Positions 1 through 36,672 of a DNA stretch of 36,672 nucleotides are shown piece by piece. The stretch comes from a virus. Position 1 is the stretch's first letter, and every line of letters starts with the position of its first letter. Both the position numbers and the translations under genes were made by a program. The DNA is taken from positions 1-36,672 of IMG/VR virus record IMGVR_UViG_3300031539_000137. The stretch is one strand, 5' to 3'. Below the pieces are notes generated by a model. The model saw only the letters and a program-made list of their open reading frames with translations. It searched no databases and was not told the origin of the DNA.

Positions 1-134
1 AGACACGGCCACGAACAATCCAGGCCGGGGTTCCAGCCCTCGGCCACGCGCCTCTCGCAGACGGAGCGCAGGTCCACCTGGTGATAGAAGGCGCCGACCC
101 CTTCCTGGAACCCGGTCACCTGGAGCCCGACCAT
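1..134. repeat. Terminal direct repeat, left copy
   Basis: These 134 bases recur at 36539-36672 with a single difference (C at 127, T at 36665). The reading frame that crosses the joint stays open, so the repeat marks circular closure or terminal redundancy rather than a chance duplication. The unique genome length is therefore about 36,538 bp. The mismatch changes Gly to Glu in the overlapping gene and may be a population variant or a read error. Confidence 0.95.
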
Positions 135-784: not shown

Positions 785-1393
785 TTACCTTCCCCATTTC
801 TTCCACCGCTCCACGATTTGCTTCGGCGTCAGCTCGCGATGGTGCATACATCGCTTCGCCGTGCACTGTTGGCAGTAGACTTCTCGCTTGCTCTGCCCCC
901 TCGGTATCGGCCGGTGAGAGAAGCCCACATCCATGCAGGCGTACTCGCTGCCATCGCTTCGCTGCGTCCGTGGTCTCTCCCCCTCCGCCTCCTCCACGAT
1001 CGCCCTCACCCTGTCCAGCAGCTCGGCCTTCTCCCTCTTGGTCCGCACCCACGCGGCTTTGTTCCGCTTCGTCGTGCACTGCCTGCAGCGGTGCTGAGAG
1101 CGAGCGAACTCGGAGCGTGCCTTCCAGTCCTTGCACCCGCCGCAGTACCTCCTGCCCAGCGCTTTCTGCTCTGCGACGAACCGGCGCTCCTGCGCCACCC
1201 TCTCCGCAGCCTGTCGCTTCCACAGAAGCCGCTGCCTTGGCGGTTGCCCGTTGCGCGACGACCTCACGCTTCTCTCCTCCACGCCGGCCTTCCGTAGGGC
1301 CGCCATGACGCCGCAGTGCGAGAGGTCAAGTAGGGCGACGGCCTCAGTGGTGGTCATCCATCCCGCGGGATCCCAGGCGGCCTCCTGGCTCAT
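785..1393 (-). CDS. HTH / zinc-binding hypothetical protein
   Basis: A 202-residue basic protein. Its N-terminus (about 12-40) looks like a small helix-turn-helix of the excisionase/MerR type (TTTEAVALLDLSHCGVMAAL). A zinc-ribbon-like module follows with CGGC near 84-87 and CRQC near 102-105, and a second CQQC plus CMHH cluster near the C-terminus. The linker is rich in Arg, Lys and Glu. The start overlaps the stop of the ParB-like gene by ATGA, so the two are translationally coupled. A DNA-binding role is inferred from the HTH and Cys pairs; no named family is recognised. Confidence 0.6.
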   Translation of the reverse strand: MSQEAAWDPAGWMTTTEAVALLDLSHCGVMAALRKAGVEERSVRSSRNGQPPRQRLLWKRQAAERVAQERRFVAEQKALGRRYCGGCKDWKARSEFARSQHRCRQCTTKRNKAAWVRTKREKAELLDRVRAIVEEAEGERPRTQRSDGSEYACMDVGFSHRPIPRGQSKREVYCQQCTAKRCMHHRELTPKQIVERWKKWGR

Positions 1394-3096
1394 CCGTCCT
1401 CTTCCTCGAGCACAGCGTCTTCGGCGATCTCATCCACCAGCTGAGCCTCCAGCTCGGCCTCTTCTTCCGTCTCTTTGACGAACTCCCACGTGCTCTTCTC
1501 CCCTGTGATGGGATTCATCAGCTCGTCCGACCGGTTCCAGTCTGTCAGAACCGGGTTCCTCACACAGGTCAGGAGCGCCGCGAGCTGCTTCCGATTCAGC
1601 GCCCCCGAGCGCAGATATTCCATGCTGGCCTTTCCGCTCTTGCACGGTAGCCAATGACCCATTGCTCCATCGCCCGCGACCTTACCCAGCCAACCGAGCA
1701 GGATCTCCTCAAAGCAGGCCTGATCGATTTCCGGGATCCGGCTCGCGTCCTTCAGCCCGAAGGCCGAGCAACGCGGAACAACGATCTCCCCGCTCTGCCA
1801 AAACGCCGTGGCCACGTACTTCGCCTCCTCGAGCCCGCACTGTTGCTTCTGATCGGGGCCCCGGAACTGGAGACAATGCTCACAGGCCTGGGCGAGCCAA
1901 TGCCCACAATCCACGCCCTCCGACAACTGCCGATCGTAGAAGGCCCGCAACCCCTCCAGCATGGCCACTGTCTCCTCGAGATCCTCCTCCTCATCCTCCT
2001 TGAGACTCCGCTGTCTCACATCCTTCAGCGCGAGGATGTAGCAAGAAACGTCGGTACACCACCGGCCGTGGTCCACGCAACCCCGGCATGTCTCTTGGGC
2101 ATCAGGGTACGGCAGCCGCACCGCATCGATGGCGATCAGGCAGTGCGTGCAGGTCTTCGTCTCCGGTTCGCCGCAATCTCGCCAAAGACCCTCTCCGGCG
2201 AACAGGCACTTCTCGCACTCCCTGCCGTTCTCCAGTTGCCAGTCCTCCAACTGCTGCGCTTTCTGCCCACACGCCTTGGCGAAGCGATCCATGCCCCAGT
2301 ACCCTGCCAACGCCGGCCGCTGCAACATGTAGGCTTTGCTCAGCGCCACCAGGACGTGCCCTCTCTTCTCCTGCGGGACGGCTTCCAGACAGCCATCCAT
2401 CATGGCCTTGACGTTGATCCGCTCCGGAGACCACGGTTGGTCATCCGGCAGGTCCCAGTATGCTGGGTCCGCGGCCGCCGCGATCTCTTGAATGATGCTG
2501 GTGGCCTCCCTGGTCGGCCTGCCCTCGATGTGCTTGGCCACGGCCGCCTGATAGGAGGCCGGCAGTTGCGCCAGCTTCCTGGCCACGCTTTCCTCTACCG
2601 CACGCGCGGTGACCTGCTCCTGCACCTCGGGCGCCAGGTCCAGCAGCCTGATCTTGTCACTGACCCATTGCTGGCTCTTCCCATAGATCTCGGCCAGTTT
2701 CTTCTGCGTCAGGCCTTGCTGCTCGATCAGGGCGTGCAGCGCCTCCGCCAGCTCGAGTGGGTTCAGGTTCTGGTGGTAGAGGTTGTCGGCTACCACCATT
2801 TGCTGGAGCCGGTACATCCAAGCGGGATCATTATCCTCAGCCCATTGCGCCCCATTGAGCTGTGTTATCTGAACCAGTTCGATCCCGGCCTCCCTGGCAG
2901 CAGCGACTCGCCGATGCCCATAGACCAGTTCCCACTCTCCATTCTCATTGAGAAATACGCCCGGCGGGTTGATCACGCCGTGCTCCTTCACCGAGGCCAC
3001 GAGCTCGTCGAACTCGGGCCCGCTATAGCCGTCCTGGCGTGTCTGCCAGCGGCTGTCTACGATCTCCGCCACGTGAACTTCCACAGTCTCACTCAT
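1390..3096 (-). CDS. ParB/RepB/Spo0J-type protein with Cys-rich C-terminal region
   Basis: 568 residues. The N-terminus (about 1-110) is a ParB/sulfiredoxin-fold domain with the diagnostic YGHRRVAAAREAG motif near 58-70. A KorB/ParB-type HTH follows (QGLTQKKLAEIYGKSQQWVSDKIRLL, about 127-152). From about 270 the protein departs from ParB and carries many Cys pairs (CEKC, CTHC, CRGC, CEHC), suggesting one or more metal-binding modules, and it ends in a highly acidic tail. ParB proteins bind DNA and CTP and act in partition or transcription. No ParA ATPase is nearby, so plasmid-like partition is not supported; a transcription or replication role is more likely (inference). Confidence 0.8.
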   Translation of the reverse strand: MSETVEVHVAEIVDSRWQTRQDGYSGPEFDELVASVKEHGVINPPGVFLNENGEWELVYGHRRVAAAREAGIELVQITQLNGAQWAEDNDPAWMYRLQQMVVADNLYHQNLNPLELAEALHALIEQQGLTQKKLAEIYGKSQQWVSDKIRLLDLAPEVQEQVTARAVEESVARKLAQLPASYQAAVAKHIEGRPTREATSIIQEIAAAADPAYWDLPDDQPWSPERINVKAMMDGCLEAVPQEKRGHVLVALSKAYMLQRPALAGYWGMDRFAKACGQKAQQLEDWQLENGRECEKCLFAGEGLWRDCGEPETKTCTHCLIAIDAVRLPYPDAQETCRGCVDHGRWCTDVSCYILALKDVRQRSLKEDEEEDLEETVAMLEGLRAFYDRQLSEGVDCGHWLAQACEHCLQFRGPDQKQQCGLEEAKYVATAFWQSGEIVVPRCSAFGLKDASRIPEIDQACFEEILLGWLGKVAGDGAMGHWLPCKSGKASMEYLRSGALNRKQLAALLTCVRNPVLTDWNRSDELMNPITGEKSTWEFVKETEEEAELEAQLVDEIAEDAVLEEEDG

Positions 3097-5483: not shown

Positions 5484-6446
5484 TCAGAACGGCAGATCCT
5501 CATCCTCTCCGTTACTCGTCTCCACGTAGGGCTCTCGCTCGAGCAGCGAGTTGTCCATCTGCTCTTCCTCCGGGCCCCAGATGTCCTGCTCACTGATTCT
5601 CTCCATGGCCGGCAGCACCACCCTACCCGCTTCGACCTCTTCCATCCACAGCGGGTCCAACTCCAGCTCCGGCGTGTAGACCTCCTTGATCAGCCTGTTC
5701 TCCACCTTGCCCCTGACTCTGACCTTCATCCACATCTCTTCGGGGCCCATCAGGTTGAGTAGCCACCTCGCAGGATAGGCGATGGTGGGACGTCCCAGCC
5801 GTAGTCTGATCCACTCGGCTCCGGTTTTGAGCTGCGAAATCAGATCACGCATCGGGTTCCAGTGGAAGGTTAGCTGATAGCAGCCGTGGCGAGTGATGCC
5901 CTCGATGGCAAACCGTAGCCGTCCTGTCGGCCGGCAGCGCCCCGGGCCGTAGCGGGGGCATTCCATATAGAGACATCTCAACCCATTGGTGCCGATCCGC
6001 TCCGCCGTGCCATAACCGTTGCCGTCCTGCCACAGCTGCGCGAGCCCCATCTCCTCTATCACGCTCCAACGTGCTACCGCACCGTACACCACTGGGGTCA
6101 TAGCGTAGTCCTTGGCCACGTGGCACCTGTACAGCACCTTCTCCCCATCTCCCATGCAGACGACCTCGCCATTGCCCATGAAGAGCATGGCGTGATGGGG
6201 GATCACGTCCTCAAAGCGCTCCATATCGAAGTGGATCCGGAGTTGCCTGGGCTGATCTTCCCCGGTGGCCACCTTCACGTCGTCGGGCACCACAAAGTAG
6301 GGTGTGGCCTTCGGTGTAGTCACCGGCTTGCCATCCCTCACCACGTGCTCCCCTTTCTTGTCCAGCACCGGCACGGTTATCCCCATGCCCACTCGCCCGA
6401 TCACCTTGGGCCGCAGCCTCTGTTCTGCCACTTGTTTGATTGTCAT
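5484..6446 (-). CDS. Gp3-like recombination directionality factor candidate
   Basis: 320 residues. The N-terminal half matches my recollection of the phiC31 Gp3-like family, which directs large serine integrases toward excision: a VIGRVGMGI start block, a PKATPYFVVPDDV block, RQLRIHFDMERFEDVIPHHAM, a GNGEVVCMGDGE block, then CLYMECPRYGPGRCRPTGRLRFAIEGI with four Cys likely binding zinc. The genome also encodes a large serine integrase, the expected partner. The protein ends EDEDLPF, very like the acidic tip of bacterial SSB that recruits DNA-repair proteins. It lies in the early operon beside SbcCD, as expected for an RDF that also takes part in replication. Family membership is recalled from motif layout, not a search. 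Confidence 0.65.
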   Translation of the reverse strand: MTIKQVAEQRLRPKVIGRVGMGITVPVLDKKGEHVVRDGKPVTTPKATPYFVVPDDVKVATGEDQPRQLRIHFDMERFEDVIPHHAMLFMGNGEVVCMGDGEKVLYRCHVAKDYAMTPVVYGAVARWSVIEEMGLAQLWQDGNGYGTAERIGTNGLRCLYMECPRYGPGRCRPTGRLRFAIEGITRHGCYQLTFHWNPMRDLISQLKTGAEWIRLRLGRPTIAYPARWLLNLMGPEEMWMKVRVRGKVENRLIKEVYTPELELDPLWMEEVEAGRVVLPAMERISEQDIWGPEEEQMDNSLLEREPYVETSNGEDEDLPF

Positions 6447-7672
6447 CTTGCCTCCTGCATCAATTCCTCCGCCGCCTTCATCAGCGCTTCTCGCTCCTCC
6501 GGCGGCTTGCCGTTGCTGCCAAACCAGGCATCCAGGAGCTCCAGGGGGTTCATCTCCTGGTAACTCAGGCCATCCAACCTGGTCCTGGTCTCCCGGTCGA
6601 TCTGCTTCACCACCGTGGCCCTCAGGGCGCCTTCCAAGGCCTTGTGTATCGCGCCCTCGTCCAGCAGCGCCGCCGCTTGCGCCGTCCCTTCGATGATCAG
6701 CCGCACCACCGCGCCGTCGATCTTGTTCTCCATGATCGACTGGATCACCGCATTGGTGGGATCCGTCCCGTCCAGATGGACCTGAATGGTCTGGAACCTC
6801 CGCACTGGCAGCGGCACGAACTCCACCTCGGTATAGGCGCCGTCCCCGAACAGTTCGTCGCCCTGGTGCTCGGCGAGGTTCACCACCACAAAGCCCTTCT
6901 CCTCCATCTCCTCGCCGAAGTCCAGCCGCTCGATGCTGCCCGAATAGATGACCGGGGGGTCATCATGGAGCCGTTGGAACTTGTGGAGGTGCCCGAGGGC
7001 CACGTAATCGAACTGTGGAAGGGCCACCGCCTCCAGGGGGATCACCACGTCGCTGCCCAGCATCACGCTCCGCTCCCCGCCAAAGGCCCCTCCCTCCACT
7101 GTGAGGTGAGCGGCCAGGATGGCGGGCAATCCCGGCTGCAGCCCGAGTGCCAGCCGCCCGATGGTCTCACTAACGGCCTCTGCGATCAGCCTGTTGACCT
7201 CCTCCGCCGGCAGGCCAGCCACCTTTTCCGATGCCATCAGCTTCTGCCGGGTGGGCCAAGGGATCCCGACCACCTGCACCGATCCCGAGGTCGTACCGAG
7301 GTGAATGATCTTGGGCCGATCAATGATGGAGACTCCCTCCACAGCCAGGGTCTCCAGGATCTCCGCCGTATTGGCTTTGGCCGGATCGCCGGGCAGGTCG
7401 TGGTTCCCCACGATCCAGACCAGCGGGCATCTCTCGGCCATACTGGCGATCCGCTGGGAGAGTTCCCTCACCAATGTGGGCGTCGGGTTCCGGGTCTTAT
7501 AGCCATCGCCCGCGAAGATCACCAGGTCCACGGCGTGGCTCTCCACGTACTCGACTATGGCATCGAGCGACTTGAGAAAGTCCTCCAACCTGGTGCTCAG
7601 GCCGGTGTCCGGCACGATGGGCCCGCTGTCATCCGCGCCCAGGTGCGCGTCAGCGAAGTGCAAGATCTTCAT
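6443..7672 (-). CDS. sbcD: SbcD/Mre11-like nuclease
   Basis: 409 residues from ATG 7672, chosen because the family's first motif (ILHFADAHLG) begins right there and the ATG overlaps the upstream TGA. Calcineurin-like phosphoesterase motifs appear in order: DAH at 8-10, AGDGYKTRN, GNHD and GHLHKF, which together bind two Mn ions. Mre11/SbcD partners Rad50/SbcC to process DNA ends and hairpins. The SbcC-like gene lies just upstream, separated by one small gene. Phages T4 (gp46/47) and T5 (D12/D13) carry comparable pairs for recombination-dependent replication. Length is normal for the family. Confidence 0.9.
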   Translation of the reverse strand: MKILHFADAHLGADDSGPIVPDTGLSTRLEDFLKSLDAIVEYVESHAVDLVIFAGDGYKTRNPTPTLVRELSQRIASMAERCPLVWIVGNHDLPGDPAKANTAEILETLAVEGVSIIDRPKIIHLGTTSGSVQVVGIPWPTRQKLMASEKVAGLPAEEVNRLIAEAVSETIGRLALGLQPGLPAILAAHLTVEGGAFGGERSVMLGSDVVIPLEAVALPQFDYVALGHLHKFQRLHDDPPVIYSGSIERLDFGEEMEEKGFVVVNLAEHQGDELFGDGAYTEVEFVPLPVRRFQTIQVHLDGTDPTNAVIQSIMENKIDGAVVRLIIEGTAQAAALLDEGAIHKALEGALRATVVKQIDRETRTRLDGLSYQEMNPLELLDAWFGSNGKPPEEREALMKAAEELMQEAR

Positions 7673-7951: not shown

Positions 7952-10216
7952 TCAATTCACGCTTATCAGGCTCCCCGCCGGACCTTTGACCACCTCGATC
8001 CGGTTCGGGAACGCCTCTCTCAGCTCCTCGATGTGCGTCACCACCAGGATCAGCTCGAAGTCGCCGGCCACCGACTGAATGGCCTCCACCAGCCGATCTC
8101 GGCCGCTGGCATCCTGGCTCCCAAACCCCTCATCCATGATCAGCGTCTGCAGCCGGGCCCCGGCTCTCCGCGCCAGCAGCTTCGAGATGGCGATCCTGAT
8201 GGCGAAGTCCAGCCGGAACCTCTCGCCTCCACTGAACAGGTCGTAGCTCCTCACCCCCAGCTCATCGCTCACCTGGATGTCCAGTGTCTCGCTGATGTCA
8301 CCCTTCTTCGTCTCCCGTTGGCTCTCGAAAGCCACGCTCATCCGCCCATCGGTCATCCTGGCCAGCAGCTCATTGGCCTGCTCCTCGATCTCTGGCAGCA
8401 CCGTCTCGATGATCATCGCCTGGATGCCTTTCTTGCCGAAGGCGGTGCGGAGCTGGTCGTACATCGCCTTGCTGCGGGAGGCCTCCTCGAACTGCTGCTC
8501 GAGCTTCTCCTTCTCGCCGGCCAGATACCGGCAGTGCTCGATCTGCTGCTGCGCCGCTCCCACTCGCAGGTTGGCCCGCGAGAACTCCTCAGCCAGGCGG
8601 TCTACGGTGCCTTGCAAATCCTGTTTCTCCCTGATGATCCGATCCATCTCCGCCATTTCTGCCCGCAGCGCATCCCGTTTGGCCGAGAGTTCAGCTACTG
8701 CTTCTTCCAGCCTGTCCGCTTCCGCCTGCCACTCAGCAATGCGCGCCTGCCTCATTGCCTGGTATCGAGCCTTGGTTTCGTCGATGGCCTGCTGGAGCTT
8801 GGGGACACGCTCTCGCCATTCTGCGAGTTGATTCTCTTCTGCCTCCAGTTTGGCCAGGCGGCCCACCAACCCTGTTTCCTTGGCCCGCAGCTCCTTCTGA
8901 TTTGCCAAGTTCATCTCAATGGCCCGTAGTCGGCTCTGGCAACTGGCTATCTGGCTATCGCGCTGCTCGATCCGTTCCTTGTTCTGGCGATATTGCGCGG
9001 CCTTCTCTTCACCCTCGCCCTGCTTGCCGGCCAGGATCTCCGCACGGTGCTCTTCGCTCAGCTCAGAATGACAGAGAGGACAGGTGCCCCCCAACCCCTG
9101 GAGGGTCTTCATCTCCTCCTTCAGGGCGTCCATGTCCTCCCGCAGGTTACTATTGGTAGCCGTCAGGGTGGCCCTTTCCTCTGAGAGCGTTGCCCTTTCG
9201 CCCTCCTCTATCTGCCTCTTGTCTTCGAGGTCAGAGAGATCATCCAATTGGCACCTTACATCCCTCAGGAGTTTCTTGGATTTCTCCATTGCCTGCGGAT
9301 CCAGGCGAGCGATCCGCGCCTCGACCTCTTCCAGCTCCTTTTGGTACTGCACGGATTGATCGACCGCCGAGTGAAGTTCCTCGCCCAGGGTTTCATCCGC
9401 ATTGCTGATCTTCCTCTGGATAGCCCCTCGCTCCGCTATCTTTTGCCGACCCTGGTCCTCGATCTCGACCAATGATGCCCGTTTCAAGGAAAGCTCGGTG
9501 GCCTTTTCTTTCACTGCGCTGAGGGAATGTTCAGCCTCTTTCAATTCCCCCTGGAGCCTGTCCACCTCTGAGGCCGCAGCATTCAGGTTGGCCTCGTGAT
9601 CCGCCTGGCGCTCGAGTTCCTCCGTCATCTGCTCTGCCCGGGCCTGGATCCGCATCACCTCCGCTTCGGCCTCCCTGGCCTTCGCCTTGGCCCGCTCCTC
9701 GAGTCCGTCCCATAGTCCCAGGTCCAGGATCTCGCCCAGGATCCGCTTTCTCTCGCCCGGCGGCTGATTGGTGAACTCATCGGCCCTACCCTGGAGAAGG
9801 AGTGCGGAGTTGATGAAGAGGTGGTAGTCCATGCCGATCGTGGAGTCGATGATCTCCTGGGTCTCCTTGATGGAGTCACCTGTCATCGGCTTCCAGTGGC
9901 TGTTGCTCTCTACCTGGAACTCCAGGGTGGAATTCCCCCGGCCGGCGCTGTCCCTCTGGCGGATGACGCGGTACTCCTGGTCCCCGAGCTGGAAGTCCAG
10001 GCGGACCTCCATCTGCTCCTCGCCCAGGTGGATCAGCTCATCATCGCGCCGGGCTCGCGCCTTGCCCCACAACGCCCATGTGAGCGCGTCGATGATCGCC
10101 GACTTGCCGTGACCGTTCTCGCCGGCCAGACACGCCAGGTGCAGGCCCGAGAGGTCCAGCTCCGTCGGTTGGGCGTAGGGCATGAAGTTGGTCATGCTCA
10201 GCCGTGTAGGTCGCAT
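7952..10216 (-). CDS. sbcC: SbcC/Rad50-like ATPase
   Basis: 754 residues. The Walker A motif GENGHGKS is at 32-39. Long coiled coils flank a zinc hook (CPLC at 379-382) that dimerises Rad50-type arms. The C-terminal lobe carries the ABC signature SGGERFRLDFAIR and Walker B LIMDEGFGSQD. With the SbcD-like nuclease it would bind and trim DNA ends in an ATP-dependent way. It is shorter than E. coli SbcC (about 1,050 residues) and close to phage and archaeal forms. The start at 10216 has a GGAGAAG ribosome binding site. Confidence 0.93.
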   Translation of the reverse strand: MRPTRLSMTNFMPYAQPTELDLSGLHLACLAGENGHGKSAIIDALTWALWGKARARRDDELIHLGEEQMEVRLDFQLGDQEYRVIRQRDSAGRGNSTLEFQVESNSHWKPMTGDSIKETQEIIDSTIGMDYHLFINSALLLQGRADEFTNQPPGERKRILGEILDLGLWDGLEERAKAKAREAEAEVMRIQARAEQMTEELERQADHEANLNAAASEVDRLQGELKEAEHSLSAVKEKATELSLKRASLVEIEDQGRQKIAERGAIQRKISNADETLGEELHSAVDQSVQYQKELEEVEARIARLDPQAMEKSKKLLRDVRCQLDDLSDLEDKRQIEEGERATLSEERATLTATNSNLREDMDALKEEMKTLQGLGGTCPLCHSELSEEHRAEILAGKQGEGEEKAAQYRQNKERIEQRDSQIASCQSRLRAIEMNLANQKELRAKETGLVGRLAKLEAEENQLAEWRERVPKLQQAIDETKARYQAMRQARIAEWQAEADRLEEAVAELSAKRDALRAEMAEMDRIIREKQDLQGTVDRLAEEFSRANLRVGAAQQQIEHCRYLAGEKEKLEQQFEEASRSKAMYDQLRTAFGKKGIQAMIIETVLPEIEEQANELLARMTDGRMSVAFESQRETKKGDISETLDIQVSDELGVRSYDLFSGGERFRLDFAIRIAISKLLARRAGARLQTLIMDEGFGSQDASGRDRLVEAIQSVAGDFELILVVTHIEELREAFPNRIEVVKGPAGSLISVN

Positions 10217-10981: not shown

Positions 10982-11008
10982 AAAATAAGACTTCGACGGC
11001 GCTTGACC

Positions 11009-11437
11009 ATGGCACTTGGACCGACCATCCGCAGGTTGCGGCAAGAACGACAGCTGCAGATCAACGAACTGGCGATGAGGCTCTCGCGACCCGATCCCTC
11101 GTACCTCGGAAAGATCGAGCGCGGAGAAGTTCCGAATCTGAGTTCTGAATTGATGGCTCAGATCGCGATGGCCCTCGATGTCAGCATAGACTATCTCTAC
11201 ATGGAGGCGGGAGTTCTCCCGGCCGACCATGACCCGGGTGAGCTTGATTCCACGGAACGCGACTTGATCAGAGCCATCCGTGGCATTGGGTCTCCGAGCG
11301 TCCGGCAGCGAGTGCTCGAGCAACTCACCTGGATCGCAGAGGTAGCCAGGGATGCGGACCTGGCCCGGCAGCCGCGTTTGAAGTTGGCGGCAGAGGAGCA
11401 CGAAGAGTATCAATCAAAGCAGCAAAGTGATGAATAG
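11009..11437 (+). CDS. XRE-family lysogeny repressor
   Basis: 142 residues from ATG 11009; an upstream TTG at 11003 is in frame but less likely, and no clear ribosome binding site is visible. Residues about 3-60 form a classic XRE helix-turn-helix (TIRRLRQERQLQINELAMRLSRPDPSYLGKIERGEVPNL is the relevant block at 5-43). The C-terminal part is helical and polar, with no S24/LexA peptidase motif. It is therefore unlikely to be inactivated by RecA-stimulated self-cleavage. It diverges from the Cro-like gene and heads the rightward lysogeny operon. Role inferred from position and domain. Confidence 0.8.
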   Translation: MALGPTIRRLRQERQLQINELAMRLSRPDPSYLGKIERGEVPNLSSELMAQIAMALDVSIDYLYMEAGVLPADHDPGELDSTERDLIRAIRGIGSPSVRQRVLEQLTWIAEVARDADLARQPRLKLAAEEHEEYQSKQQSDE

Positions 11438-12274: not shown

Positions 12275-12278
12275 CTTC

Positions 12279-12292
12279 ACCGAGCGCTCGGT
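12279..12292. repeat. Dispersed palindrome ACCGAGCGCTCGGT, copy 1
   Basis: A perfect 14-bp palindrome just after the TPR gene stop and 49 bases before the integrase ATG. The same core occurs at 21563, 27896 and 35171. It could be a regulator operator, a host-type dispersed repeat or part of the attachment region. Confidence 0.8.
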
Positions 12293-12302
12293 AAAATCAT
12301 CC

Positions 12303-12340: not shown

Positions 12341-13858
12341 ATGCGCTGCGTGATCTGGGCCGCCGTCAGTTCCCCCGGCCAGGCCTCCGAGGAGAAGGAC
12401 TCTATCCCCTCTCAGATCGAGGCCGCCCGCGAGCTCATCCAGCGCAGCGACGGCTGGCACGAGGTCCAGGAGCCGCTCGTCATCCCCGGCCACTCCAGGA
12501 GCTACATCTTCCTCGCCGATGCCGCCGCCGACATGCCTGTGTACACAGACCTCATGCAGTTGGCTCGTCAAGGCGAGATCGATCTCCTCGTCTGTCGTGG
12601 ACGTGATCGTCTGGGCCGGACCGATGCGCTGATCGCCCAGATCGAAGAGTACCTGGCCTCCTACAACGTCCAGGTGCTCTCCCTCTCCATGCCCACCAAG
12701 ATTCAGGAGCCGGGTGAGTTCGCCGCCAAAGGGAACCGGCCGGCGATCTGGATGCGGAGCATCGAGAGAGCCAAATCGCAGGACGAAGTGGCGGAGCTCA
12801 GGGCCAGGCACCGCATGGGCATGAGGAAGCGCATCAAGAGCGGCCTCCATGCCAGCAAGGTGCCCTATGGTTACCGGCTGGGCCCCGATGGCTACGGGGT
12901 CCCTCATCCAGCGGAGGCCTCAGTAGTCAGACTCCTGGCCAGGTGGACCCTGGAGGGCCTGCCCTATCGCGAGATGCTCAGGCGGCTGCCTTCTCATGCC
13001 AGCGGCCACCATCCCACCAGTGTGACCATGATCCAGCAGGTCCTCCGCAACCCCTACTATCGCGGTGCCGTCGCCTATCACCGCAAGGACCGGAAGACCC
13101 ATCGCTGGCGCGATCGCTCCCAGTGGCTGGTCGCCCCTGGCTTGCACGAAGGCATCCTCGATGAGGACATCTGGGAGCGCGTGCAAGCGGAGATGGACGC
13201 TCGGCGCCGGCAGGGATCCCGGGCCGCCGTAGTGATCAGACCCCTCTCCGGCTTCCTCTTCTGCGCCGAGTGTGGAGAGGGCATGATCATCCGTGGCGGC
13301 AATCCCGATTATGGCTATATGTATTATGCCTGCGAGAATTGCGCCGATCGAGACGGCGTGCATCGCAACACTATCCGTGACGACGTAGCGCACCAGGCAC
13401 TCATCGACTGGCTGCTGGAGAGGGCACTCAAACCCGAACTTCTTGCTGAGGAACTGGATCATCTCAGATCAGCCAATCTCGACGACGCACAAGGAGAACT
13501 GCGATCCCTCTCACAGGTTGTGGGCAGCAAGCGCGCGGCCCTCGAGCGATACCGGAGGGACTATGAGGAGGGCTGGCTGGATCGCACCGATTACTATACC
13601 AACAAACTCCGGCTGGAGGAGGAACTCGCCGGCGCCGAATCCCGCCTGCTCGAGCTGCAGCGCAGACATGATGCCTTCGACGTCGAGCGGCTGGAGCAGG
13701 CGATCAGCGCATTCCCTCCTGAGGCCATCAGGCGTCTGCGTCAGGACTGGCGCCAGCCGGACGTGGCCAGGCCCCTCAAGGCCCTGCTCCGTCAACTGGG
13801 CATCAGAGTCGAATGCACAAACTCCTCCCTCTCCATCGCTCTGGCCCGCGCATCATAA
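12341..13858 (+). CDS. int: Large serine recombinase / integrase
   Basis: 505 residues. The catalytic domain (about 1-150) has Ser10 in AVSSPGQ, a SIPSQ turn at 21-25 and GRDRLGRTD with Asp89, Arg90 and Arg93. The recombinase domain follows (VPYGYRLGPDGYG near 174), then a zinc ribbon (CAEC and CENC near 305-335), a coiled coil (about 380-455) and a C-terminal tail: the full large-serine-integrase layout. It would integrate the phage at attB and, with an RDF, excise it. Oddity: the residue two before the catalytic Ser is Ala8, where most family members have Arg. Spacing to the upstream gene suggests expression with the lysogeny operon. Confidence 0.93.
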   Translation: MRCVIWAAVSSPGQASEEKDSIPSQIEAARELIQRSDGWHEVQEPLVIPGHSRSYIFLADAAADMPVYTDLMQLARQGEIDLLVCRGRDRLGRTDALIAQIEEYLASYNVQVLSLSMPTKIQEPGEFAAKGNRPAIWMRSIERAKSQDEVAELRARHRMGMRKRIKSGLHASKVPYGYRLGPDGYGVPHPAEASVVRLLARWTLEGLPYREMLRRLPSHASGHHPTSVTMIQQVLRNPYYRGAVAYHRKDRKTHRWRDRSQWLVAPGLHEGILDEDIWERVQAEMDARRRQGSRAAVVIRPLSGFLFCAECGEGMIIRGGNPDYGYMYYACENCADRDGVHRNTIRDDVAHQALIDWLLERALKPELLAEELDHLRSANLDDAQGELRSLSQVVGSKRAALERYRRDYEEGWLDRTDYYTNKLRLEEELAGAESRLLELQRRHDAFDVERLEQAISAFPPEAIRRLRQDWRQPDVARPLKALLRQLGIRVECTNSSLSIALARAS

Positions 13859-21561: not shown

Positions 21562-21577
21562 TACCGAGCGCTCGGTA
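21562..21577. repeat. Dispersed palindrome TACCGAGCGCTCGGTA, copy 2
   Basis: A perfect 16-bp palindrome in the 58-base gap between two tail genes. Same core as at 12279; related copies at 27896 and 35171. Confidence 0.85.
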
Positions 21578-27764: not shown

Positions 27765-28378
27765 GGGAGTCCGAACCTCGGCAGGTAAGCATGACGCACC
27801 ACCACGTCTCTCCGTGCGTAGACCCTGAACCCCATCTCCCTGGCCTGGGCCATCAGGCTCACGTGCTCCACTTCATCTCCGATCGGAGCGTATCTACCGC
27901 GCGCTCGGTAAACCTCCGCCGGGATCAGGTAGCAGCTCCCCACGCTGTCCACCTCCACCAGGTCCCCGCCCTCGCAATATAGCGGGTACAGCTCGAACCG
28001 CCTCCCGTCCTGGATGAAGCCCCCGATGTCGTAGAACCGATCTGGCGGGAACCGCAGGTTCCTCTCGAGGAGCACGAAGGGCGCCACGATGTCCCCCTCG
28101 CTTACCTCCGCCAGCAGCTCCACGATCCTCGCCGGCACCTCCACCAGGTCCACGTCCAGCCATAAGATGTGCGTGTGCTCTGGCCGCAGATGCCGCTCCA
28201 CCAGCTCGTTCCTGGCCCGGGCGTTGTCGGCGTACTTCCCCTCAGCGGGAGGATAGTCGTTCAGGTACAGCGCCCTCTCCCGCTGCGGCCAGGTCAGCGC
28301 CCCGTAGATCCCCTTCGAGATCTCCAGCAGCTCTTTGGGCGTGCTGACCCGCGCCGGCGTCGCTACCAGGACGTTCAT
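27752..28378 (-). CDS. GT-A family glycosyltransferase
   Basis: 208 residues. Strand MNVLVATPARV opens a Rossmann-like fold, and HILWLDVDLVEV carries the DxD motif (Asp75, Asp77) for metal and nucleotide-sugar binding. GSCYLIPAEVYRARGRY and HVSLMAQAREMGFRVYARRDVVVRH follow the usual GT-A order. The gene directly follows the major capsid gene, separated by a strong hairpin. Phage glycosyltransferases usually modify DNA or host surface; here the location suggests a capsid or tail target (inference). Confidence 0.8.
   Translation of the reverse strand: MNVLVATPARVSTPKELLEISKGIYGALTWPQRERALYLNDYPPAEGKYADNARARNELVERHLRPEHTHILWLDVDLVEVPARIVELLAEVSEGDIVAPFVLLERNLRFPPDRFYDIGGFIQDGRRFELYPLYCEGGDLVEVDSVGSCYLIPAEVYRARGRYAPIGDEVEHVSLMAQAREMGFRVYARRDVVVRHAYLPRFGLPWNG
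27895..27910. repeat. Dispersed palindrome, copy 3 (inside glycosyltransferase gene)
   Basis: TACCGCGCGCTCGGTA, two mispaired positions from a perfect palindrome, encoded within YRARGRY codons. Its 14-base core equals the complement of copy 4 at 35171. A coding location argues against a purely intergenic repeat. Confidence 0.7.
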
Positions 28379-35160: not shown

Positions 35161-35170
35161 CTTCTCCCTC

Positions 35171-35184
35171 ACCGAGCGCGCGGT
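35171..35184. repeat. Dispersed palindrome, copy 4 (terminase leader)
   Basis: ACCGAGCGCGCGGT lies between the leader terminator and the TerS ribosome site. It is the reverse complement of copy 3's core. Its place in the late leader makes it the best candidate for a regulatory site. Confidence 0.8.
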
Positions 35185-35188
35185 AAAC

Positions 35189-36456: not shown

Positions 36457-36672
36457 TCAAATGTGCAGCGAACCTCCGGGGAGGTCCACCAGCCAGTAAT
36501 CCCCGAGCTGCATGGGATCCGACGTGATAGCCGCCGCCAGACACGGCCACGAACAATCCAGGCCGGGGTTCCAGCCCTCGGCCACGCGCCTCTCGCAGAC
36601 GGAGCGCAGGTCCACCTGGTGATAGAAGGCGCCGACCCCTTCCTGGAACCCGGTCACCTGGAGCTCGACCAT
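36457..36672 (-). CDS. Small hypothetical protein, C-terminal part (continues from the left end)
   Basis: The right-end copy of the gene whose true start is at 173 in the left end. In this window it runs from an internal ATG at 36672 to TGA 36457, 71 residues, and carries Glu where the left copy has Gly. The protein has a DLPGGSLHI end and no recognised domain. Confidence 0.6.
   Translation of the reverse strand: MVELQVTGFQEGVGAFYHQVDLRSVCERRVAEGWNPGLDCSWPCLAAAITSDPMQLGDYWLVDLPGGSLHI
36539..36672. repeat. Terminal direct repeat, right copy
   Basis: Matches 1-134 at 133 of 134 positions; see the left copy. Beginning at AGACACGGCCACGAACAATC, it shows the contig overlaps itself. Confidence 0.95.

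Follow-up and report, generated by a model that had tools for sequence, protein, structure and literature searches.

Does a phage protein of the phiC31 Gp3 type reverse a serine integrase, serve replication and recombination, or do both? This question is raised by a minus-strand gene in the window (the whole stretch of 36,672 bp that was analysed). The original prediction read its product as a Gp3-type recombination directionality factor (RDF) with an SSB-like terminus and a large serine integrase (LSR) as partner, one protein linking excision with replication. A 134-bp direct repeat at both ends marks the record as a complete circular phage of ~36,538 bp (Table 1).

Table 1. Coordinates of the features discussed in the text
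Feature	Position	Strand	Evidence or remark
Terminal direct repeat, 134 bp	1..134 and 36539-36672	none	record ends identical
Gp3-like protein gene	5484..6446	minus	320 aa, ATG start; Pfam PF18897 and AF2/Foldseek
SSB-Ct-like C-terminal tip NGEDEDLPF, closing low-confidence segment 290-320	5487..5513	minus	translation, tail statistics, pLDDT
Cys158, Cys163 and Cys171, then PTG stretch	5934..5975	minus	family alignment
Cys97 codon, first invariant Cys, motif VCMGDGE	6156..6158	minus	family alignment
SbcD-like metallophosphoesterase nuclease	6443..7672	minus	PF00149 E=9.1e-12; start (ATG of MKILHFADAH) inferred
SbcC/Rad50-like ATPase	7952..10216	minus	AAA_23 E=3.9e-20, SbcC_Walker_B, weak Rad50 zinc hook
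HTH protein, probable repressor	11003..11437	plus	HTH_3 E=2.1e-8
Large serine integrase (LSR), 505 aa, presumed partner of the Gp3-like protein in an RDF role	12341..13858	plus	PF07508 E=1.3e-15, PF13408 E=3.8e-10, PF00239 E=1.2e-6
Copies of palindrome TACCGAGCGCTCGGTA	12278-12293, 21562-21577, 27895-27910, 35170-35185

PF18897 (Gp3-like) was the sole Pfam family matched by the window protein (E=3.7e-14), and the SSB domain (PF00436) was absent from it. A profile search against the Gp3-like family had been named as a check on the prediction, and it gave 53.5 bits, above the curated cut-off of 23.6. The same profile matches phiC31 gp3 itself at E=1.7e-17. Zero direct similarity to phiC31 gp3 was found by BLASTP, and a profile-profile comparison with the phiC31 clade gave E=8e-6. 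PHROGs and NCBIfam returned no useful match, and a phmmer search against PDB sequences gave chance matches only. When 12 family members were aligned, four cysteines (C97, C158, C163 and C171) were invariant, with C97 located 60 residues ahead of a C-x4-C-x7-CRPTG block. The N-terminal blocks IGRVGMGI...PKATPYFVVP and GDGE were common to the window protein and its aligned homologues.

An AlphaFold (AF2) model of the window protein was built on the family alignment. It has a confident core, whereas residues 290-320 have pLDDT <50. In the model, an OB-like beta core with an inserted four-Cys (zinc) segment leads into a poorly ordered C-terminal stretch. Foldseek gave a single significant match in the PDB, to chain I of 9teh, in which the excisive synapse of phiC31 contains an Int-RDF fusion (E=1.2e-5, prob 1.00). 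The compact core model of a relative (L087, pLDDT 87) also matched the 9teh RDF (E=8.5e-7). The window protein is a true relative of the phiC31 RDF, and the Gp3-type block order and four-Cys PTG segment of the original prediction were borne out by the PF18897 match, the four invariant cysteines and the fold match.

After 9teh, the matches to the L087 core were mostly OB-fold ssDNA binders or MCM, among them a nucleotide-excision-repair complex (9pd3_N, E=0.016) and yeast RPA-ssDNA (6i52_C, E=0.032), in addition to human RPA core, Tetrahymena telomerase and MCM/CMG, with SSBs lower. Chance matches (kinesins, fluorescent proteins) were intermixed with them and none was significant alone; in Foldseek, RPA and SSB reach marginal values only (E 0.016-1, low TM-scores). 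RPA70 DBD-C is an OB fold carrying an inserted four-Cys zinc ribbon. The Gp3-like model resembles RPA70 DBD-C and Teb1C in its OB-like barrel with a four-Cys insertion, and RPA-ssDNA entries were among the first structural matches after 9teh. However, these matches reach E 0.016-0.2 only, sequence similarity is absent and neither RPA70 DBD-C nor Teb1C has the acidic tip. For an OB fold with an inserted zinc site, the four invariant cysteines are seen and the RPA, MCM and SSB matches are marginal. Four zinc ligands have been predicted in phiC31-type RDFs (PMC11530663). A paper tying the phiC31-type RDF family to the OB fold was not found in our literature search, and the modelled link of the Gp3-like fold to OB-fold ssDNA binders appears to be new.

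Close relatives were not found in single-protein scans with the Gp3-like protein (viral contigs, genome contigs and phages) or with the window integrase (viral contigs), and no Gp3-like protein was found in the records of terminase relatives. HMM searches detected Gp3-like homologues in 10 of 399 genomes from the phylum of a Clostridia bacterium and in 2/291 from the phylum of an Armatimonadetes bacterium, and seeded viral scans added ~22 further loci. In the maximum-likelihood tree, the sister of the window protein was L083 (support 98/92, in a placement that the long window branch makes less certain than these values imply), the sole other IMG/VR family member in an LSR phage. phiC31 fell in the other main branch, together with VWB and MinS1. 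Two Gp3-like proteins (L063, 9938-11284, and L066, 3445-4917) have an additional OB-like-looking C-terminal domain, and in L066 an SSB-like gene (5850-6287) is located downstream of the Gp3-like gene. L064 (2256-6693, Clostridia-type genome) has a Gp3-like gene ~1.5 kb upstream of a 547-aa serine integrase and represents a second candidate Int/RDF pair outside the actinophages.

The gene neighbourhood was then compared across the family. In the window, the Gp3-like start and the end of the sbcD-like gene upstream share 4 nt (ATGA), with the SbcC gene next upstream of SbcD; this pairing with SbcD-SbcC was missed by the original prediction. A phrog_298 exonuclease adjoins or lies near the Gp3-like gene in phiC31 (gp1), VWB (gp8), MinS1 and L070. 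Other neighbours are a RecE/Cas4-like exonuclease (L058), PDDEXK nucleases (L068 and L092), an annotated Cas4 exonuclease (SEA phages BabyYoda, Eden, SunnyD, Honk and Halsey) and a Mu Gam-like end-protection protein (L060). In L084 (2691-4793), a continuous 700-aa ORF joins an N-terminal Cas4-type nuclease-like half to a C-terminal Gp3-like half. It is an apparent natural nuclease::Gp3-like fusion, in which the N-terminal half has a weak nuclease match only (phrog_1706, E=0.0013) and an internal start is possible. The pairing of Gp3-like genes with recombination exonucleases appears to be new. Within the 33 records bearing a Gp3-like gene, to which these counts are confined, a canonical SSB was present in one and RecT in none; no SSB was found in the window record. 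The gene order, a nuclease followed by an ssDNA-type partner, is that of RecE-RecT and Red exonuclease-annealing pairs, although the Gp3-like protein is not RecT-related and annealing by it is only hypothetical.

The nuclease neighbours and the rarity of SSB and RecT agree with phiC31 genetics, where deletion of gp3 gave no plaques and a replication role was inferred by the authors (PMC3836970). Another paper assigns a part in replication to the RDFs of Bxb1 and phiC31 alike (PMC5311408). phiC31 gp3 alone gave no shift of att-site DNA (PMC3132441), in a test of double-stranded att DNA and not ssDNA. The Bxb1 RDF gp47, a metallophosphoesterase, is also needed for replication, as far as Savinov 2012 is cited in PMC3836970, and its gene likewise lies in the replication region. 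However, gp47 is unrelated to Gp3-like proteins. The SbcD neighbour was considered as a gp47-type RDF and rejected, as the two share a broad fold class only and no phmmer similarity. A dual function of a Gp3-type protein has already been reported for phiC31 gp3. The proposed link of excision and replication in one protein has this precedent and its RDF half is plausible only, while the replication/recombination role, which the prediction had not recognized as the older one, seems to be ancestral.

The window protein ends in GEDEDLPF, an acidic terminus with a P-F end on the predicted-disordered residues 290-320. A tip rule (at least three D/E in the last 8 residues and a P(x)F end; ORFs of at least 100 aa) selected 3 of 1230 ORFs, namely the window protein, the Gp3-like protein of Streptomyces phage AbbeyMikolon (...ADEPPF) and a canonical phage SSB in L075 (...EDLDLPF). 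The rough Fisher value of 1.4e-4 is to be read in the light of the rule having been fixed after the tail was known. Tip-bearing Gp3s were overlooked in ORF picking, probably in places where a longer overlapping ORF took precedence. On direct inspection, ...EDEPAF and a weaker ...GDDVPF (Eden) were found in the lytic Microbacterium lineage and, as a weaker case, ...FEDIFNNEPF in L063; most family members have no tip. The acidic tip NGEDEDLPF is beyond chance, and the SSB-like terminus EDEDLPF noted in the original prediction held, the rule also catching a canonical SSB. Tips of actinobacterial-phage Gp3-like proteins resemble the mycobacterial SSB tip DDEPPF (PMC7847540). The tip thus originated on several branches, LSR-bearing as well as LSR-less, and does not mark RDFs. 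Its recurrence across the family appears to be new. The window protein is like bacterial SSB in this tip on a disordered tail and in a weak OB-fold resemblance, and differs from it in lacking PF00436, in its zinc insert and in its marginal structural scores.

With slightly better than even confidence, we favour a reading in which the basic job of the family is phage recombination/replication, some serine-integrase phages have put the protein to use for switching to excision, and the window protein is probably also the RDF for its own LSR. The family assignment, the 9teh fold match, the four cysteines, the tip, the nuclease pairing and the rarity of LSR, SSB and RecT in phages that carry the family were established by computation, and from them we infer ssDNA binding, partner docking and RDF activity of the window protein. 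The OB-fold core with its four-Cys zinc insert would handle ssDNA produced by the upstream-encoded SbcD-SbcC or by replication, and the protein would hold the place taken in other phages by a RecT-type annealing protein or SSB. On induction, it would bind the integrase and so allow attL x attR recombination. Against this reading count the marginal RPA and SSB matches, the missing att-DNA shift with phiC31 gp3, the lack of a tip in most family members and the weak nuclease match of the L084 fusion.

The integrase side of this reading was examined with the same records. The LSR proposed as partner is present at full length, with Resolvase, Recombinase and Zn_ribbon_recom domains. Serine recombinases usually have YxRxS, with Arg two residues ahead of the catalytic Ser; the N-terminus of the window integrase reads WAAVSSPGQ and has no Arg at this position. 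A Recombinase domain was found in 7/33 records carrying a Gp3-like gene and in 2/22 of the IMG/VR set, where absence is weak evidence as many records are possibly fragments. Tyrosine integrases were found in 5/33, including VWB and MinS1. The Resolvase domain was absent from the Microbacterium/Curtobacterium phages BabyYoda, Eden, SunnyD, Katzastrophic, Celaena, Buldak, Lynlen and BAjuniper; the authors of BAjuniper reported no integrase and predicted a lytic life (PMC10652889). Lytic cluster EB Microbacterium phages have a tip-bearing Gp3-like protein and no integrase.

Compared with the gp3 RDFs of phiC31, phiBT1 and TG1, the window protein shares PF18897, the 9teh fold, a predicted four-residue zinc site, a serine integrase in the genome and a gene in the replication region. 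In contrast to them, it lies in a different main tree branch with no pairwise BLAST similarity, has an SSB-like tip and is next to SbcCD rather than a phrog_298 exonuclease. It also differs at four of the seven residues whose mutation abolishes Int binding by gp3 (G27, M105, C117, G119, P154, P168 and L170; PMC5814800). M105, P154, P168 and L170 are not kept. G27 and G119 are kept, yet they are also present in 31-32 of 32 LSR-less homologues, and in the case of C117 the window protein has a Cys two residues away. We therefore rejected residue-level proof of integrase binding, as the conserved residues are fold residues. For the Gp3-type RDF of the original prediction, family, fold and LSR stand; the inference of RDF function is weaker. 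Because the family is mostly LSR-less and the Int residues are lost or non-specific, RDF activity of the window protein is plausible only.

Accordingly, two further readings were weighed. The window protein may serve replication/recombination alone and not act as RDF, in which case excision would be the work of another, unrecognised protein. The lytic phages with a tip-bearing Gp3-like protein and no integrase, the four lost residues and the distance from the phiC31 clade are in line with this. We regard it as unlikely, though deserving real weight, because an LSR is present both in the window genome and in that of the sister L083, and RDF surfaces may diverge along with the integrase. A dedicated RDF that solely switches the serine integrase to excision, its acidic tail being incidental or a solubility feature, is rather improbable. 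In its favour, family and fold are those of the phiC31 RDF, an LSR occurs in the window phage and in that of the sister L083, and no other RDF candidate was recognised. However, the family is mostly without LSR, the gene directly follows SbcC-SbcD, phiC31 plaque formation needs gp3 (PMC3836970) and the tip is specific.

In the favoured reading of a recombination/replication protein that probably doubles as RDF, the disordered tail with EDEDLPF would dock the host partners of the host SSB tip. Self-interaction and autoinhibition are known for the acidic tails of SSB and Hfq. That the tip is likewise such a self-interaction tail, competing with ssDNA for a basic OB face and not a host docking tag, is improbable, as the terminal P(x)F suggests the SSB-partner pocket and AbbeyMikolon ADEPPF resembles the actinobacterial SSB tip DDEPPF (PMC7847540).

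A wider proposal, to which we give somewhat less than an even chance, concerns the whole Gp3-like family. It would be a separate phage ssDNA-binding/annealing class with an RPA70C-like OB/zinc core and a nuclease partner, and would often take the place of SSB or RecT. The excision switch would have been borrowed later, and several lineages, including that of the window, would have gained the SSB-like tip independently to call in host SSB partners. Few RDFs are as well characterised as phiC31 gp3, which is also used in genome engineering, yet the need for it in plaque formation has no explanation so far. Were ssDNA handling alongside recombination nucleases the root function of the family, this need would be explained and 'recombination directionality factor' annotations in lytic phages would be misleading. 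It would also provide a testable link between replication entry and prophage excision, and a new phage SSB/annealing-type family of use in recombineering for hosts such as Bacillota and Actinomycetota and for uncultured groups.

Two other features of the window were recorded. A ParB-like protein (1390-3096, minus strand; ParB_N and HTH_ParB) is encoded in this ~36.5-kb phage, and ParA was not noticed. The near-perfect 16-bp palindrome TACCGAGCGCTCGGTA occurs in four copies against 0.15 expected in the window. One copy lies shortly upstream of the integrase and another where the gene preceding the terminase begins; the palindrome is possibly a repressor operator or a ParB site.
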